Shown here one piece after another: positions 30,200 through 57,195 of a stretch of 64,000 nucleotides of DNA (position 1 is the first letter of the stretch; every line of letters begins with the position of its first letter). Source of the DNA: Bacteroidetes bacterium GWF2_35_48 (lineage in GTDB: Bacteria > Bacteroidota > Bacteroidia > Bacteroidales > GWF2-35-48); the NCBI GenBank assembly GCA_001769125.1, contig MEOG01000069.1:124001-188000 (forward strand), in the 5' to 3' direction. The notes beneath the pieces are model-generated. The model saw only the letters and a list, made by a program, of their open reading frames with translations. It did not search any database and was not told the DNA's origin. Both the position numbers and the translations under genes were made by a program.

Positions 30200-33100
30200 A
30201 TGAAATATTTTCTTTTCTCATTATTTTTAATTGCCTGTTTGTCAGTATTTTCTCAAAAAAGTGAGATTTATGAATTAAATTGGCAAAAACCTTTAAAAGA
30301 GATAATCGGATCAGAAACTTTATTGTTTTTGAATTTCTCAGGAGCTTCTTATAATGATAAACTACTTCCGGTTTTTAGTTTCAGAGATGCTATTCCGGTT
30401 GGCATGAAGGTTATCAATGCTCAGATTTTTAATGCTGAATTTATTCCTCTTACTGAAGAGGAGCAGGCTTTTCTAAAGAACCCTGAAGCTATTTCTACAG
30501 AGATAATTTTAAATACAGATTTCCAAATTGAAAGGAAAAAACCTTATACATTATTTTCAGTTGTTCCACTCAAAAGAAATTCCTCGGGTACAATTGAAAA
30601 ATTGTCAAAATTCAGTTTATCCTATTCCCTTGCTTTTACAAAAGAAAATGATATTGCTAAATTCAAAGTATTATCTAATGTATCTGTACTCAATACCGGT
30701 AAATGGGTAAAATTAAAATTAAATGAAAGCGGAATTTACAGAATTAGTTACAGCGAATTAATAAGTATGGGATTTTCTAATCCGGGAAATATTTCGGTTT
30801 TTAGTAACGGAGGAGGCATGCTTCCTTTGCGGAACAGCGATTTCAGACACGATGATCTTGTTCAGAATTCGATATCTTTTGAAGATGTGAATAGCGACGG
30901 GTCTTTTAATTCGAATGATTATATTTTGTTTTACGGGCAATCTTCGCATAATTGGGGCTATGATTCAACCAAAGGTATGTTTATACACACGAAGCATCGT
31001 TATTCTGATTACTCGTATTGTTTTTTAACAGACAGCAAGCCTGTGAAAATTATTAACTCTGTAAATTCATTGCCATCTGGAAATGTGAATGTAAGTACTT
31101 TTGACGATTATAACTTTTATGAACGAGACTCCTTAAATCTTATCAATTCCGGGTCGGTTTGGTATGGTTCCTGCTTTGACATTGTTACAACCTATAATTA
31201 TTATTTTAATTTTCCTGATATATATACTTCATTGCCCTTGAAAGCAAAGATTGCCGTAGCTGCAAGATCTTCTTCAATCAGTAATTATTCGGTATCCATT
31301 AATGGACAAAATCAAATTCCGCTTTCAGTAAGCTCTGTCAATATAAATTCTTACACCAATTCGTATGCTGCTGATGGATTTGGCTATTATTCTGTTTCCC
31401 CTCAATCAAACAATAATACAATAAGGCTATCTTATAATAAACCCAATTCTTCATCAATCGGATGGCTGAATTATATTACGGTGAATGCGAGGCGTTATTT
31501 GAAAATGAGTAGTTCGCAGCTATATTTCAGAGATATTAATTCTGTAGGCGCAGGAAAAATTGCCACGTATACAATAACAAACGCAGGAAGTAATCTTAAA
31601 GTCTGGGATGTTACAAATCCTGTAAATGCATTCAGAATATTACCTGCTTCTTATAGTGACGGTACTTTTGTTTTTCATGCTGCTGCAGATTCTCTTCGCC
31701 AGTTTGTTGCTTTTAATGATGCTTCTTTTCTTTCTCCTGTAAGGGTTGGAGATGTAACCAATCAAAATTTGCATGCGCTTGAAAATGTTGATATGGTAAT
31801 AATATCTCATCCTGACTTTAAATCGTATGCCGATCAGTTAGCAACACACCACAGGGCAAAAGATAATTTTTCGGTTGTTGTTGCTACGCCGGAAGAAGTG
31901 TACAATGAGTTTTCATCGGGTATGCCCGACGTTGCTGCTGTAAGGGATTTCATGCGGATGCTTTATGATAAGGCTGGAACAGATGATGATAAAATGCCCC
32001 GGTATTTATTATTGTATGGAGACGGTTCCTATGACAATTTCAGCAATTCTTCTTCTAATACAAATTATATTCTGACGTATCAATCCGGAAATTCTCTTGA
32101 TCCTACCCAGTCTTACGTTTGTGATGATTTTTATACCTTATTAGATTATAATGAAGGCACTGTGGCGGGTTCTGAAACAATGGATATTGGGGTAGGACGA
32201 CTTCCGGTAAAAACACAGAGCGAAGCGAAACTTGTTCTGGATAAAATTCTGAATTACACCAGTACTGCTACATTTGGCGACTGGAGAAATGTTTTAACTT
32301 TTGTAGGAGATGATGCCGAAGACGTTACAAGTCACCAGACGCAGACAGATTATCTTGCAAATGTTTGCGATACTTTAGTTCCAAATTACAACATTGATAA
32401 AATTTATCTCGATGCTTTTCAGCAGGTATCCACACCGGTTGGAGAAAGATATCCTGACGTTAATATTGCGATATTAAACAGAATCAGAAAAGGTACGCTT
32501 GTTTTTAATTATACTGGGCACGGAAATGAGCTGGGTCTTGCGCACGAACACGTTGTAACAACAAGCGATATCGCCTCATGGGACAATTGGAACAAACTTC
32601 CCGTTTTTATTACTGCTACCTGTGAATTCAGCAGATATGATGATCCTGTCAGAACTTCAGCAGGCGAGCAGGTCTTACTAAGCACGAAAGGTGGCGCAAT
32701 TGCCATGTTTTCAACATCGCGGCTCGTGTATTCTACTCCTAATTTTTATCTGAATCAGAGTTTTTATGATTATATGTTTGCGCAGGATAATAATGGAGAG
32801 ACCTATCGTCTGGGAGATGTTATGCGTCTTGCCAAAAACAGTCCAACTACAACCGCTAGCATCAATAAAAGAAACTTTGTGCTTCTTGGCGATCCCGCCT
32901 TGCAAATAGCGATTCCTTATCATAATGTTGTTACTACACATATTAATGGTGCTACTTTATCTTTAGCAACCGATACTTTTAAAGCACTCAGTAAAATAAC
33001 TGTTTCAGGAAAAATTGTTGACCGCTCGGGTAGTATTGTTTCTGATTTTAACGGAATAATTTATCCTGCTGTTTACGACAAGCCCATGAATACATCAACA

Positions 33101-50262: not shown

Positions 50263-50913
50263 TTACACCATCCGTGCTTTTTCTACCACTTCAAGAAATT
50301 CGCTCGTTATCATTGCTGTGGCACCCCATATATAATGACTTTTTGCCATAAAACAGGGAGCTTCTATTTCTATTGAATTTACTTGAAGTTTTTTTATAAA
50401 ACGATTTTGCGGCGATAATAAATACGAAAGCGGGATTTCAATAATGCTTTCAACTTCATTGTCGTCTTTTTTAAAAACGGGTTGAGTTTCTGTCCATCCC
50501 ACAACAGGCAATACTGTTATATTGCTGATTGGAATATAAAGAGAAGTCAATGTTCCCAGAATAATTATGTCATCATGATTTATGCCTATTTCTTCAACAG
50601 ATTCACGAATGGCTGTTTGAATAAGGTTTTTATCTGCGAGTTCGTATTTTCCTCCGGGAAAGCCAACTTGTCCGCTGTGAGGACCACTATACAAGGCTCG
50701 TTGAATAAAAACAGTATAGATTTCTTTTGTCTCAGTATGCGGATATAATAAAATCAATACGCCACTGTTCCGTTTTAAAGGATACTTAACAATTGTATCA
50801 AAGTCAGCATCTCTTACAGAAGACGCCATTCTTTGTTGTACCTCTGCGCCGGGCAACTCTTTTCCAAGCTCAATTCGTAATCTTTCTACTGCCTGTAAAA
50901 AATCCATAGGCAA
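50263..50913 (-). CDS. NUDIX hydrolase, CoA pyrophosphatase-like
   Basis: A 216-aa NUDIX protein. The Nudix box GGKYELADKNLIQTAIRESVEEIG has the REXXEE core and follows SGQVGFPGGK. The length and the LIxLYPH, ALYSGPHSGQVGFPGG pattern resemble the NUDT7/8-type coenzyme A pyrophosphatases (YeaB-like). The UPF0035 signature is partly visible. It starts 12 bases after gatD, probably on the same transcript. Confidence 0.87.
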   Translation of the reverse strand: MPMDFLQAVERLRIELGKELPGAEVQQRMASSVRDADFDTIVKYPLKRNSGVLILLYPHTETKEIYTVFIQRALYSGPHSGQVGFPGGKYELADKNLIQTAIRESVEEIGINHDDIIILGTLTSLYIPISNITVLPVVGWTETQPVFKKDDNEVESIIEIPLSYLLSPQNRFIKKLQVNSIEIEAPCFMAKSHYIWGATAMITSEFLEVVEKARMV

Positions 50914-50924
50914 ATAATACTGGG

Positions 50925-52313
50925 TTATTTATGAAATTTTCTGATAAAATCTTCCACTTCCGGAACACCGCCCTGATATATCAGGTAGCCATTATAAGGC
51001 TCGCGGGTTGTTATTTCATCATTAATGGGCGTAAGCATTAATCTGCGCACTTCTTCGGGATCATTTGTCTGTCCAAGTACCCATCCTAATTTAATGTATG
51101 CAACTTCAGGAAGCATATTCTCAGCTGGAATCACACCTTTTGCCATCAAATCGCGACCTGTATCATAAACAAACATGTGTACATAACCCCATAGTGTTTG
51201 TACGGTCATAAAAATATGTACGCCTTTTTTTACAGCGCGTTCAATTGCTGGATACAAAGGTTTGTTTACATGTCCCAGCCCTGTTCCGATGATTATAATT
51301 CCCTTGTAACCATTATCTACAAGCGAGTCTATCATGTCGGGCTGCATGTTGGTGTAATAGTAAATCATAGCAACTTTTTCTTCAAAGTAAGGCAATATTT
51401 TTACTTTGCGGTCTTTCCTGCGATGGTTGTAATCCTGCTTGATAGGCGTTACTCCGTTTTTACGGCTTACAGTGGCAAGTGGTGTATCGCCAATGGTGCG
51501 GAATGTGGAACGGTAGGAAGAGTGCATTTTGCGTACACGTGTGCCACGGTGTAAGAATCCGTATTCATCAGATGTTGGTCCGAACATACAAACCATTACT
51601 TCTGCAATGTCTGAATATGCTGCTGTATAATTGGCATGTATAAGGTTCAGTGCGGCATCGGAAGAAGGCCGGTCGGAAGAACGCTGTGAGCCTACAAGCA
51701 CAATGGGAACAGGAGAGTCTTGAATCATGAATGTCAATGCGGCGGCTGTATAGTGAAGCGTGTCGGTTCCGTGTCCTATAACAATGCCTTCAATGCCGTT
51801 TTCAATTTCTTTTCCGATAGCAATGGCTAATTTTTTATATTGCTCGGGACCCATATTTTCGCTGAAAACAGCAAATAATTTTTCTGTTGTAAGGTTGCAG
51901 ATATCTGCCAGTTCGGGTACAGCTCCGTATAATTCCCCGGGAGTAAATGCGGGAATTACAGCACCGGTTCTGTAGTCGAGACGCGACGCAATGGTTCCTC
52001 CTGTTCCGATAAGCTTCACTTTTGGTAAGCCCGGAGTGTAGGGAAACTCTTTTTCGGGAATTTTATAATTGGCTTTTTTGTACCCTACTTCTTTCATCGA
52101 AGTAATGGTTTTAATATCCAATCCGACATTATAACCCGTGATGATTTTAATAACAATATGCTGGTCATCGTCGTTTTCGGAGCGTGGCAACACCGTACCT
52201 GCAAATTTGCCACGGCTTGTTTCTATTTCTGCTTGTCCCCAAACTCGTACATTAAATTTCATGAGCATTTTTAAACCTGCTCCTTTGTATCCCTGAAAAA
52301 AATCTTCTGCCAT
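50925..52313 (-). CDS. gatD: Glu-tRNA(Gln) amidotransferase subunit D (archaeal type)
   Basis: GatD is the asparaginase-like glutaminase that supplies ammonia for converting Glu-tRNA(Gln) to Gln-tRNA(Gln). An N-terminal Sm-like domain of about 95 residues (GTVLPRSENDDDQHIVIKI) separates it from plain asparaginases. The catalytic set is visible: Thr in GTGGTIASRLDYRTGAV, Thr-Asp in VIGHGTDTLHYTAAAL, and Lys in RVRKMHSSY. GatDE is described from Archaea; most Bacteroidota use glutaminyl-tRNA synthetase or GatCAB. It lies downstream of gatE in one operon. Confidence 0.93.
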   Translation of the reverse strand: MAEDFFQGYKGAGLKMLMKFNVRVWGQAEIETSRGKFAGTVLPRSENDDDQHIVIKIITGYNVGLDIKTITSMKEVGYKKANYKIPEKEFPYTPGLPKVKLIGTGGTIASRLDYRTGAVIPAFTPGELYGAVPELADICNLTTEKLFAVFSENMGPEQYKKLAIAIGKEIENGIEGIVIGHGTDTLHYTAAALTFMIQDSPVPIVLVGSQRSSDRPSSDAALNLIHANYTAAYSDIAEVMVCMFGPTSDEYGFLHRGTRVRKMHSSYRSTFRTIGDTPLATVSRKNGVTPIKQDYNHRRKDRKVKILPYFEEKVAMIYYYTNMQPDMIDSLVDNGYKGIIIIGTGLGHVNKPLYPAIERAVKKGVHIFMTVQTLWGYVHMFVYDTGRDLMAKGVIPAENMLPEVAYIKLGWVLGQTNDPEEVRRLMLTPINDEITTREPYNGYLIYQGGVPEVEDFIRKFHK

Positions 52314-52364
52314 TTTTATTTTTTTAAGTCGTTTTTTTTTCTATATTTTATTTGAAAATTTAAT

Positions 52365-52485
52365 GATTTGAAAATTTGCTGATTTGCTGATTTGAAAATT
52401 GACTAACTCATTCTCATTATTCCTCAAATAATTTTCAAATTTTCAAATTGCCCCATTTTCAAATTAAGACATCATCAAATTATTT
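52365..52485. repeat. AT-rich inverted repeat between gatE and gatD
   Basis: GATTTGAAAATTTGCTGATTTG and its repeat stand opposite CAAATTTTCAAATTG and CATTTTCAAATTA. The stretch is a low-complexity dyad of TTTGAAAAT units. It fills the 166-bp gap between gatE and gatD, an unusual place for a repeat inside an operon. Confidence 0.55.
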
Positions 52486-54453
52486 ATATTTCACAATTTT
52501 ATCTTTCAACTCATTCAAATTCATATTGCCTACAGCCTGTTTCCGCAATTGCCCCATTACCCAGTCAATTTCTGCTTTCTGTGTTTTATTAATGCCGATT
52601 TCTTTATATTTTTCTTTCAGAAACCCAATAGGCGCAAGCAATTGTTCTTTACTGCGTTTTTTGAATTTCATATTGATCAGCACAGATTCAAAATCCATTT
52701 TTGGGTGTTCGTATAAAACAGGAAGCATTTCTCTTGCAATGTTAATATCAAGATCTTCCTTTTTCAGATATTTGAAAAGGTCATAAATCATGTCGTAATT
52801 GAAGTCAGACGCTTTTGCATAATGTCCTTCTATAAATTTCATCCAGTGGCCGAAGAAAGTACCGGTAAATTTAGAAGCCAGCTTCAGGTCTTTAATAATT
52901 TTTTCAATTTTCGGAACTAAATTTTTCTTTAAAATGTAAGTGTATGTATCTTCCGGGATGCCCCATTTCTTTAATTGTTTGTATCGGTCAACCACATCAA
53001 CAGGAAGATTTTTGCTCAACATATCAATGTATTCCGATTCAAGCGGAATAGGTGCCGAGTCGGTGTCGGGGTACATTCTGTCTGCACCCGGCAGCACTCG
53101 TTCGAAAATAGTAGTACCGTCTTTAAATGATTTTCTGGTTTCATTGGGAATGCCTTCAAAAGCCATTTTACAACGCTCATCAATTGTTTCAAGCGCTGTT
53201 TTCATATCTTCTTCAGGTCCCCAGATGATGATTTGCGAATCATTGTCCCCGATTTTTAATTTCGGAGCAATAATTTTCATGTCTTCGTCAGTAATGATTT
53301 TATCAAACTGCTCTGTATGGAGCATGTTTGGTTTTTCGAGACAGGCAATAACTTTGAGGCGGTCTGCAATTTCGTCTGCAAACATTTTTCCGGGCTGTGT
53401 AAAATGAGAAAGTATTCCTTTAAATTCGGAAAGATTTACAGCAATAAATTTATATTTTTTATCGCGTGCTATTTTTAATGGTTCATAATTAATTTCAAAG
53501 TCTTCGTAATCTAATTCAACGGAACTCATTTTCCATTTTTTTGCATCGCTGATTCTTTTTTTCAGCAAATCGCGAACGTGCAGCAAAGCCCATTGGCGGT
53601 AACATTCATTGTGTGTTAAAAGAGGCATCCAGTTGTTGTGGGAGACTCCTTTGATTTCAACGCGGGTTCCTCCTTTGCAGCTTACATTGACATCAGCGCG
53701 TGTAGAGCCGATGCCGGTTCTTACTTTGCCAGTGCTTCTGTTGAGAAAACGGATATAATCGGCGCCTTCTTTAACTTCATCGGGGTTTGCAAAATCAGGA
53801 TAGGTAACGGTTTCAATGAGGGGCATTCCAAGTCTGTCTGTTTTATAAATACGCACGTGACCGATGTCTGAAATTTCCCTGCAGGAATCTTCTTCAATAC
53901 TTAACTGTATAATTCGTACTTTTTTATTTTTCAGCGGAAGTTCTCCTTCAACGCCAATTATGGCAGTTCTCTGAAATCCTGTAGGAATGCTACCATCAAG
54001 ATATTGTTTGCGGGTTATATGTACTTCTCCGACAATATTAAGTTTTGTAAGTAATGAAATTTCAATTGCAATTCCCAAAGCTTCCCTGTCAATTTTAAAA
54101 GGAGGAGTATCGTCAACTTCGTAAGTACAGGCTGTTTCGTTTTTTATTCTGTACACTATTTCTTTGCGTGTACGAAACTCCATAAGTGCAGTACCATCGT
54201 ATTCGCCAAGCTCGCTGAGTGTGGGTCGCATGTGACGAATAATTTCAGAATCAAAAACATCGCTTTTATTGAATACACCGGCAGGGCAGTGGCAAAATAA
54301 TTTTTCTTTCGTAAGAAGCTGTTGGTGCACTTCAAGTCCCGACATAAAACCTATCTTGTCATAATCTTTCTGCGCTGCATCTTTACGGGCAACATAACCT
54401 ATCGCTTTTTTAGTTTCCTGATAATTCTTTTTAGGATCGAATTTCTTTTTCAT
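52480..54453 (-). CDS. gatE: Glu-tRNA(Gln) amidotransferase subunit E (archaeal type)
   Basis: GatE binds Glu-tRNA(Gln), activates it with ATP and amidates it with ammonia from GatD. The N-terminal cradle begins IGFMSGLEVHQQLLTKEKLFCHC (GatB-like). GSTRADVNVSCKGGTRVEIKG and PLIETVTYPDFANPDEV are core blocks. The GAD (AspRS-like) insertion that marks GatE rather than GatB lies near 300-425 (LSHFTQPGKMFADEIADRL). A helical and YqeY-like tail ends NLNELKDKIVKYK. Length, 657 aa, is that of GatE; GatB is about 480. A strong promoter precedes it. Confidence 0.93.
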   Translation of the reverse strand: MKKKFDPKKNYQETKKAIGYVARKDAAQKDYDKIGFMSGLEVHQQLLTKEKLFCHCPAGVFNKSDVFDSEIIRHMRPTLSELGEYDGTALMEFRTRKEIVYRIKNETACTYEVDDTPPFKIDREALGIAIEISLLTKLNIVGEVHITRKQYLDGSIPTGFQRTAIIGVEGELPLKNKKVRIIQLSIEEDSCREISDIGHVRIYKTDRLGMPLIETVTYPDFANPDEVKEGADYIRFLNRSTGKVRTGIGSTRADVNVSCKGGTRVEIKGVSHNNWMPLLTHNECYRQWALLHVRDLLKKRISDAKKWKMSSVELDYEDFEINYEPLKIARDKKYKFIAVNLSEFKGILSHFTQPGKMFADEIADRLKVIACLEKPNMLHTEQFDKIITDEDMKIIAPKLKIGDNDSQIIIWGPEEDMKTALETIDERCKMAFEGIPNETRKSFKDGTTIFERVLPGADRMYPDTDSAPIPLESEYIDMLSKNLPVDVVDRYKQLKKWGIPEDTYTYILKKNLVPKIEKIIKDLKLASKFTGTFFGHWMKFIEGHYAKASDFNYDMIYDLFKYLKKEDLDINIAREMLPVLYEHPKMDFESVLINMKFKKRSKEQLLAPIGFLKEKYKEIGINKTQKAEIDWVMGQLRKQAVGNMNLNELKDKIVKYK

Positions 54454-54476: not shown

Positions 54477-54507
54477 CAAAAATAATTTTGTTTTAATTCA
54501 AAACAAA
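54477..54507 (-). promoter_or_regulatory. Promoter of the gatE-gatD operon
   Basis: On the minus strand TTTG (54507-54504) and TATTTTTG (54484-54477) are separated by 19 bases, the ideal Bacteroidota -33/-7 arrangement, 24 bases before the gatE start. Confidence 0.7.
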
Positions 54508-54567: not shown

Positions 54568-54615
54568 GGATTAAGGATTAAGGATTAAGGATTGCTACTC
54601 CTACTTCTTAATCCC
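54568..54615. repeat. GGATTAA triple tandem with inverted partner
   Basis: GGATTAAGGATTAAGGATTAAGG is followed a dozen bases later by CTTCTTAATCCCC. It is a short intergenic dyad of a type seen at several other gaps in this window. Confidence 0.6.
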
Positions 54616-54636: not shown

Positions 54637-55887
54637 TCAACCGGGTATCTTCATTTTATATACCTTTTTATATCCGTAGTTAATATGATAAACATTGCTG
54701 ATATCCCTGTACATGAAAAACAAATTGTTATCATAAATACGAATTTTGTCAAGTTGAGTATAACCCGGTATTTTAATGGTCTCTTTTAGTTTTCCTGTTT
54801 TAATGTCAATCCTGTTTATTGTTGAAATACTCTGTTTTATATTCCATAAATAGGCTTTACCTGATGCATCATCCGTTAAAATTGTTTTTTTGCGAATATC
54901 TTTTTTATGAAAATCAATATCAATAAATTTATTTTCTATCGGTCTTCCGTCGCTATCATAGCATTCTATTCTGTGTTCAATAAAGTTGAATAAATAAATG
55001 GAGTCTTTCAATTTTATTAAAGGACAATAAACGGAGTCTTCAAAAAACTGTTTCTGAAAAAAAAGTACCTCATCAATATATTTGCATTTTTCATTCGGAA
55101 TATATTTCAGAGAATTTATTATCGATAGGTTATGAGTGTTTAGAATAGTTCTGAAATTATCAGGTTTATTATACGTCTCATCAAAGTAATAATAATTTAA
55201 CTGCTGCTCATATCTTGAATATTCTTTAAAATACAATTTTCCGTTTAATTCAAATACACAGTTTTTCATGGTTTTAATAAAGGAATATATTTCAGATGCG
55301 TATAATAAGATTATTTGCTTTGAATCGTAGAATATTTGATATGCTGAATCTTTGGTTAACAAATGTACGTTCCCAAGGCAATCTTTGTAAAGCATTTCAG
55401 GTTTGGTTACTTTTACCGAGCAAACGGTATCTCCGTTAAAATCTGAAAGGACAAGCCTTGTTGTTATGTCAAAGCAAAGCAAAAGCAGTTTGTCTTCATA
55501 TATTTCATAATCCCAAACATCGTAGGGTCTTTTTTCCAGAATTTTTTCAACTTTCCCGGCTGTAACATTCACACCAGTAAGTTCTGTAATTTTTGATTTT
55601 AATTTAATATGTACCGGAAATTTTGTTTTTTCAGATATTTTCAAATAAAAATTCTGATAGCCAACGTGAGATACAATAAGAGTAGCGGGCAGTTTTTCAA
55701 TTACCAGATAAAAGTTCCCTTTAACATCAGTTGTCGTACCATGAATCGCTCCTGCTATTTTGATGTTTGCATAAGAAATTTCCGAATTGCCTGTAGAATC
55801 AGAAACAGTTCCAAAAACAGATATTTCATGAAATTGGCTGTAAGCAATAGAGCTAATAAATTGTATTAAAAGAATGATTTTTTTCAT
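54637..55887 (-). CDS. Surface-type protein with carboxypeptidase-regulatory domain (paralogue 2)
   Basis: A 416-aa exported protein with a signal peptide (1-18). Residues about 22-105 form a carboxypeptidase-regulatory-like beta domain: VSDSTGNSEISYANIKIAG, GTTTDVKGNFYL, LIVSHVGYQNFYLKI, the same pattern as the plug-preceding domain of TonB receptors. The remaining 300 residues have repeated short beta strands and may form a propeller (VWDYEIYEDKLLLLCFD and DKIRIYDNNLFFMYRD). It is paralogous to the next gene upstream. The function is unknown. Confidence 0.72.
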   Translation of the reverse strand: MKKIILLIQFISSIAYSQFHEISVFGTVSDSTGNSEISYANIKIAGAIHGTTTDVKGNFYLVIEKLPATLIVSHVGYQNFYLKISEKTKFPVHIKLKSKITELTGVNVTAGKVEKILEKRPYDVWDYEIYEDKLLLLCFDITTRLVLSDFNGDTVCSVKVTKPEMLYKDCLGNVHLLTKDSAYQIFYDSKQIILLYASEIYSFIKTMKNCVFELNGKLYFKEYSRYEQQLNYYYFDETYNKPDNFRTILNTHNLSIINSLKYIPNEKCKYIDEVLFFQKQFFEDSVYCPLIKLKDSIYLFNFIEHRIECYDSDGRPIENKFIDIDFHKKDIRKKTILTDDASGKAYLWNIKQSISTINRIDIKTGKLKETIKIPGYTQLDKIRIYDNNLFFMYRDISNVYHINYGYKKVYKMKIPG

Positions 55888-55890
55888 GCA

Positions 55891-57195
55891 TTATAAAGTC
55901 TGTTTATAGAGGCTTTTTTTATAATTGACAGCATCTGTTTTATACAGAAAATATAAAACTCCGTTAAGAACCTGAATTTTATCAATCCATGGAAACTTAA
56001 TGCTTACAGGCTCTTTTGCATTGCCATATATTAAATCAATTTCAGCCAACATATATTTTTTATTTTTTTGAAAAAGAGTGTAGGCCTTATTGGTAATTTT
56101 ATCAATGATTATTTTTTTTAACCAGCCCTTTTCTTTATGATAACTGATTGCAATTGTTTTTGCAAGAGTACCCCTTTTGTTATAGACTTCAATTACGTTT
56201 TCAATATGATTGAATAAAAAAATACTGTCTGCGAGATAAAACATAGGACAATATAAATAATCATTTTTCAAATCCTCAGTAACCGGGTCAAAATAAATAT
56301 TGTCTTTCCCTGTCCATTCGCTGAGCTTTGTGTCTGCCATTTTAGATCTTTTATTTTTTCCCTGATTTTTTTTATCGGCTTTATTGATTATTGTTTTACT
56401 GTGTAATGTGTCTTCAATATGCCTGAACGTTGAATCTTCTCCGGTTTCAGGAACAAAAAAAGAGTACTCTGCGGTATAGCGCGTAGTTCCGTAAAAATAA
56501 CTGAAAACATAACCATTATTGGTTGTCGCTACACAAGGCATATAAAGCTTATTGGAAATATCCTGTTGGGTAAAAACCATATCAAAACATTTATCTGAAA
56601 ATTTTATTTTATACGGATAAAGAAAAGTTATTAAGTTTACATTGCCGGAGCAGTCTTCAAAAATTCCTACAGGCTTACCTATATCTTTAATACAAATAGG
56701 TTCAAAATTATTGTCAATAATTAAAAGTTTTGATCGCTCAAGTTTCTTCTCATACACAATAAGAAAAATAGTATCATTGCTAATTTCATAATCAAACAAA
56801 TTGAATTCATTGTTGCTGTATATAATCTGTGGAACGCCAAAAATTTTTATTTCGGGCAGCTCAAGAATTTTTTGAGATATAAAAATGTTGGTCTGTTCCT
56901 GTTCTTTAGGGGTTAAAATTAACTCATGGTTATTGTAAGATACATGAGAAACCTGAATATGAATTTTTGAAAGTTTTTTATTACTGCGATATTTCAAATT
57001 GTACAAACCATTTTCGTTTGTAACCGTACCGTATTTTGTCCCTTCAATTATCAAATTAACATTTGGTATCGGCGCAAGAGTTGCAGAGTCGAAAACTTGT
57101 CCATGGATTGTGTAGTCAAAGACCTGTCCGTACAGATTTGATTTGAAAAAGAAAAACAATAGAATTAAAATAATATTTTTTATTATTCTGAGCAT
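55891..57195 (-). CDS. Surface-type protein with carboxypeptidase-regulatory domain (paralogue 1)
   Basis: A 434-aa exported protein (signal peptide 1-23) with the same plan as its neighbour: a regulatory-like beta domain (IHGQVFDSATLAPIPNVNL, GTVTNENGLYNLKY, IQVSHVSYNNHELIL), then a long beta-strand region. Both contain matching phrases in the second part (FDYEISNDTIFLIV against WDYEIYEDKLLLLC, and SIFLFNHIENVIEVY against SIYLFNFIEHRIECY). The two genes are separated by only three bases, a tandem duplication in one operon. I cannot name a function. Confidence 0.72.
   Translation of the reverse strand: MLRIIKNIILILLFFFFKSNLYGQVFDYTIHGQVFDSATLAPIPNVNLIIEGTKYGTVTNENGLYNLKYRSNKKLSKIHIQVSHVSYNNHELILTPKEQEQTNIFISQKILELPEIKIFGVPQIIYSNNEFNLFDYEISNDTIFLIVYEKKLERSKLLIIDNNFEPICIKDIGKPVGIFEDCSGNVNLITFLYPYKIKFSDKCFDMVFTQQDISNKLYMPCVATTNNGYVFSYFYGTTRYTAEYSFFVPETGEDSTFRHIEDTLHSKTIINKADKKNQGKNKRSKMADTKLSEWTGKDNIYFDPVTEDLKNDYLYCPMFYLADSIFLFNHIENVIEVYNKRGTLAKTIAISYHKEKGWLKKIIIDKITNKAYTLFQKNKKYMLAEIDLIYGNAKEPVSIKFPWIDKIQVLNGVLYFLYKTDAVNYKKSLYKQTL

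Follow-up and report, generated by a model that had tools for sequence, protein, structure and literature searches.

Textbooks assign the amidotransferase GatDE to archaea, and a gatE-gatD gene pair in a Bacteroidota genome raises the question of whether it encodes a working enzyme and what that enzyme would do in a bacterium. The pair lies in a 64,000-nt stretch of DNA, here called the window (positions 124,001-188,000, forward strand, of contig MEOG01000069.1, assembly GCA_001769125.1), from Bacteroidetes bacterium GWF2_35_48 (Bacteroidota; Bacteroidia; Bacteroidales; GWF2-35-48), whose genome is 98% complete. Based on sequence comparisons, we consider it probable (about 0.6) that the products of gatE and gatD form a working tRNA-dependent amidotransferase of two subunits, long resident in the order and acting beside GlnRS on Glu-tRNA(Gln) as a second or repair route.

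Both genes are encoded on the minus strand, gatE first and gatD after a gap of 166 nt; a NUDIX gene, thyA and folA come next. Both open reading frames are intact: gatE (52480-54453) encodes a 657-aa Glu-tRNA(Gln) amidotransferase subunit E (the kinase/transamidase subunit), and gatD (50925-52313) a 462-aa asparaginase-like, ammonia-producing subunit D. GatE scored above both cut-offs of the NCBIfam GatE equivalog models (470 bits against 456 and 411 against 319.6), as did GatD with the corresponding GatD models (513 against 310 and 509 against 324). The Pfam GatD_N domain was matched at the N-terminus of GatD, together with both asparaginase domains. Separate Pfam models for the GatE insertion and tail remained below threshold in the window GatE. 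Its alignment with the solved archaeal GatE structures 1zq1 and 2d6f covers the whole length, including insertion and tail, and a profile of bacterial GatEs aligned with 1zq1 over profile positions 27-657. The AlphaFold model of GatE (pLDDT 83) has its best PDB matches in 1zq1_C and the 2d6f GatE, ahead of every GatB structure, and GatE is thus predicted to fold like its archaeal counterpart. These results bear out what an earlier note on this DNA had described: a GatE-length protein with an AspRS-like insertion, a GatD with an N-terminal domain and an intact Thr/Thr-Asp/Lys set and, together, a GatDE pair in a bacterial genome.

The GatD residues Thr107, Thr183, Asp184 and Lys262 are invariant across 35 bacterial GatDs, and His43, Glu187, Glu188 and Glu214 of GatE across 48 bacterial GatEs. 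We take the catalytic roles of these residues to be those established for archaeal GatDE. Between the window and locus L034, dN is 0.11 for gatE and 0.06 for gatD with silent change saturated, which points to purifying selection on both genes. Identity of GatE to archaeal GatE is about 30%. The poor conservation of the tail among the 48 bacterial GatEs counts against the reading preferred here. On balance, the equivalog matches, the whole-length match of GatE, the invariant residues, purifying selection and the joint retention of gatE and gatD argue for a tRNA-dependent amidotransferase, and the pair of this genome is probably active.

A promoter-like site of the Bacteroidota type (TTTG-N19-TATTTTTG, 54477-54507, minus strand) ends 23 nt ahead of the gatE ATG, in agreement with the earlier description of a well-formed promoter; this loose pattern occurs only four times in the 64 kb, both strands counted. 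A tandem CCTTAAT heptamer is located at 54568-54590, between the upstream gene and this site. The repeat reported in the gatE-gatD gap (52314-52479, minus strand) is also real: it is AT-rich, with ATTTTCAA / ATCAGCAA units that could form a long weak hairpin. The gap is filled with the AT-rich words ATTTTCAAAT / ATTTGAAAAT, which are found again near 55637-55646 and 31497-31506. A structured RNA in the gap was considered and rejected, with no Rfam match and a hairpin z-score of only -2.05.

Equivalog models identified full-length GlnRS and AsnRS and a single bacterial GluRS in the window's genome, which also encodes AspRS and LysRS, likewise full length. The search for glnS and gatCAB proposed earlier therefore had a divided outcome, with GlnRS found and no GatB above cut-off in this 98% complete genome. 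Judged by the GatB model, the pair does not belong to a GatCAB system. GlnRS was present in 63 of 67 GatE-bearing genomes, some of them incomplete metagenome assemblies, and the other four (G314, G287, G251 and G416) have GatB; thus, no checked genome depends on GatDE alone. Hence the proposal that GatDE supplies the Gln-tRNA of such cells is not supported. Dependence on GatDE alone for Gln-tRNA, where GlnRS is lacking, characterises the archaeal context and does not define the enzyme itself. The main new fact is that the GatDE pair is accessory in the bacteria covered by these 67 genomes.

The pair is widespread in the order. GatE passed its cut-off in 48 of the order's 119 sampled genomes, nearly all from different families, leaving 71 without such a match; across the phylum, 30 of the 395 sampled genomes had one. 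Genome contigs were scanned as well, giving 80 loci from Bacteroidota and also from Clostridium, Oceanirhabdus, Calditrichota, Zixibacteria and Cloacimonadota records; cultured Marinifilum, such as M. flexuosum DSM 21950, and a complete Oceanirhabdus chromosome carry gatDE. In 100 of 110 loci with a gatE open reading frame, gatD lies 3' of gatE on the same strand (96 as the next frame, four one further), and in several of the remaining loci the contig or locus stops before the gatD position. The gene order, previously thought unusual, is therefore the norm in bacterial loci. Phages, viruses and plasmids gave just distant GatB matches, except for one haloarchaeal plasmid. On this 987-kb plasmid of Natrinema thermotolerans (CP031304), gatE is split across frames and lacks annotation, representing either a broken gene or a sequencing error.

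A GatE tree with 48 bacterial proteins sets these apart from its three archaeal members, of which one is a fragment, and contains two deep bacterial groups and a long single branch (L030) of unsure placement. Several phyla are represented in the group with the window's GatE. Within it, the Bacteroidota sequences make up a single supported set that also takes in a Chlorobiota-labelled record and a genome from another class. An archaeal origin of bacterial GatE would be compatible with this tree, from which the direction and date of transfer are not derivable because it holds only three archaeal sequences. In the RpoB tree, the sampled genomes of the order split 14 versus 32 with full support, and the GatE tree gives the same main split with one exception (G527); constraining the 11 GatEs of the smaller group together was not rejected (p-AU 0.57). 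GatE therefore looks long resident in the window's order as far as these trees go. The isolated transfer proposed earlier is at odds with this concordance and with the 48 of 119 genomes. Common occurrence with vertical inheritance, the pattern that had been set against a transfer, largely applies to GatE; for GatD, the tree rejects the main RpoB split (p-AU about 0.0005). The two trees conflict within the order even though the genes are adjacent (window 50925-52313; L285-L299, L159-L165), and gatD may have been swapped between relatives.

Archaeal tRNA-Gln has an A1-U72 pair, which is contacted by GatDE (PMC9499178). Both tRNA-Gln genes of the window's genome (anticodons TTG and CTG) have the bacterial U1-A72, with A73 and an 8-nt D-loop, so the expectation of a Gln tRNA fitting archaeal GatE failed; A1-U72 belongs to the archaeal setting rather than to the enzyme. 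The tail domains of GatDE and GatCAB read the smaller D-loop of tRNA-Gln (review, PMC4810234). Among 43 genomes of the order in which tRNA-Gln was found, using search patterns built from the window's tRNA and one relative, an 8-nt D-loop was seen in 17 of the 20 GatE-bearing genomes and in 5 of the 23 without GatE (Fisher p 4.8e-5; the genomes are not independent). Four supported independent pairs on the RpoB tree gave on average 2.5 for and 0.1 against the association. In Pagel's test the nominal p was 0.014, some of the rates having reached their bounds. Simulations that assumed independence, run with a weaker optimiser, attained the observed value in 2 of 32 cases. After phylogenetic control, the association is borderline, a lead rather than a result. 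Along with U1-A72, two features of the 8-nt D-loop count against the preferred reading: it exceeds the 7-nt form in size instead of being smaller, and it equals the D-loop of tRNA-Glu in the window's genome. In many genomes one tRNA-Gln isoacceptor has an 8-nt and the other a 7-nt D-loop, usually CTG 8 and TTG 7 (G434, G436, G451, G455, G479, G516, G524, G527, G530 and others; L168-L226). The tendency of the 8-nt D-loop to go with GatE suggests tRNA-Gln as the target. A tentative, on balance doubtful, extension is that cells of this order have two Gln-tRNA routes, GlnRS and GatDE, with a GatE tail co-evolved with the enlarged 8-nt D-loop of tRNA-Gln, often of one isoacceptor, and GatDE serving or repairing that tRNA-Gln.

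With GlnRS already in the cell, the pair would probably serve either to correct Glu-tRNA(Gln) or as an additional source of Gln-tRNA(Gln). In the most probable reaction, the one already known, GatD would free ammonia from an amide donor, and GatE would phosphorylate the Glu of Glu-tRNA(Gln) and then amidate it to Gln-tRNA(Gln). For repair, the single GluRS would mischarge tRNA-Gln and GatDE would turn the resulting Glu-tRNA(Gln) into Gln-tRNA(Gln); as a backup, under a shortage of free Gln or of GlnRS, the pair would provide extra Gln-tRNA(Gln). From the comparisons above we infer that the enzyme is active, what its substrate is, that GluRS is partly non-discriminating and that the pair acts in repair or as a backup; a non-discriminating GluRS is possible, though not required.

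The main rival reading is that the bacterial enzyme has changed its substrate and acts on another aminoacyl-tRNA (Asp-tRNA(Asn), or a Glu-tRNA outside translation) or on a non-tRNA acid. It draws on the accessory status of GatDE in the 67 genomes, on the low identity to archaeal GatE with its diverged tail, and on a tRNA-Gln without the archaeal first base pair. The catalytic residues and whole-length architecture are nevertheless those of a Glu-AdT, the D-loop tendency indicates tRNA-Gln, and AsnRS covers Asn-tRNA here, and we regard a new substrate as unlikely. The presence of AsnRS also led us to reject GatDE as a stand-in for that synthetase.

A second tRNA-dependent route is also preferred over a scenario developed from the earlier note, in which a single recent transfer from archaea now acts as the main Gln-tRNA supplier together with a non-discriminating GluRS. 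Homology to archaeal GatDE and a genome without GatB speak for that scenario, and we give it very little weight, as it is already contradicted by the full-length GlnRS, by a GatE that is common in the order and concordant with RpoB on the main split, and by the base composition of the genes (GC 0.38 and 0.42, with codon third positions near those of the neighbouring thyA). That the pair is a redundant remnant lacking a selected function seems highly improbable: GlnRS renders GatDE dispensable in principle, and 71 of 119 genomes of the order do without a GatE above cut-off, but the frames are open, the active sites are invariant across phyla and dN is well under dS. Contamination or mis-assembly, which only the archaeal name of the family would favour, is already refuted by the bacterial flanking genes (thyA, folA, NUDIX and TonB-associated domain proteins) and by the same pair in many bacterial records, including those of Marinifilum and Oceanirhabdus.

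Compared with archaeal GatDE (Pyrococcus abyssi 1zq1; Methanothermobacter thermautotrophicus 2d6f), the bacterial pair shares two subunits, domain architecture, catalytic residues and predicted fold. In contrast to the archaeal systems, its host has GlnRS and a tRNA-Gln with U1-A72, the gene order is gatE-gatD, and GatE has a longer N-terminus in addition to its diverged tail and its separate place in the tree. GatE is homologous to GatB of bacterial GatCAB and shares its chemistry, whereas the window GatE reaches 112 bits on the GatB model (cut-off 314.8) and its ammonia-producing partner is the asparaginase-like GatD. Bdellovibrio, Deinococcus and Thermus retain GatCAB in the presence of GlnRS/AsnRS (PMC4206432), and are alike in having a transamidation route beside direct synthetases. 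Their GatCAB can form Asn on tRNA-Asn, whereas archaeal GatDE has been described only for Gln-tRNA(Gln), so the tRNA-Asn explanation is not transferable.

Reviews confine GatDE to archaea (PMC9499178, PMC8007984), a statement contradicted by its wide occurrence in bacteria beside GlnRS or GatCAB. We found no publication on bacterial GatDE in the open-licence literature; a paper outside it could exist. Since NCBI has models that recognise these proteins as GatD and GatE, the genes are probably so annotated in public databases, and interest lies in the prevalence of bacterial GatDE, its coexistence with GlnRS and its function. Such bacteria remove the archaea-derived rule that GatDE replaces a missing GlnRS and allow one to ask why both routes to the same aminoacyl-tRNA are maintained in a single cell, a question that is testable in cultured members (Marinifilum, Clostridium tagluense and Oceanirhabdus).

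Neighbouring genes were also considered as functional partners and rejected. The commonest neighbour, recurring in 42 loci, is the NUDIX gene (a CoA-pyrophosphatase-like hydrolase, 50263-50913, minus strand), which adjoins gatD downstream; the remaining recurrent neighbours look lineage-specific. No tRNA gene adjoins the pair in the 52 GatE loci scanned. Upstream of gatE, two tandem proteins (54637-55887 and 55891-57195) are alike in layout and have CarboxypepD_reg domains as their sole Pfam match.
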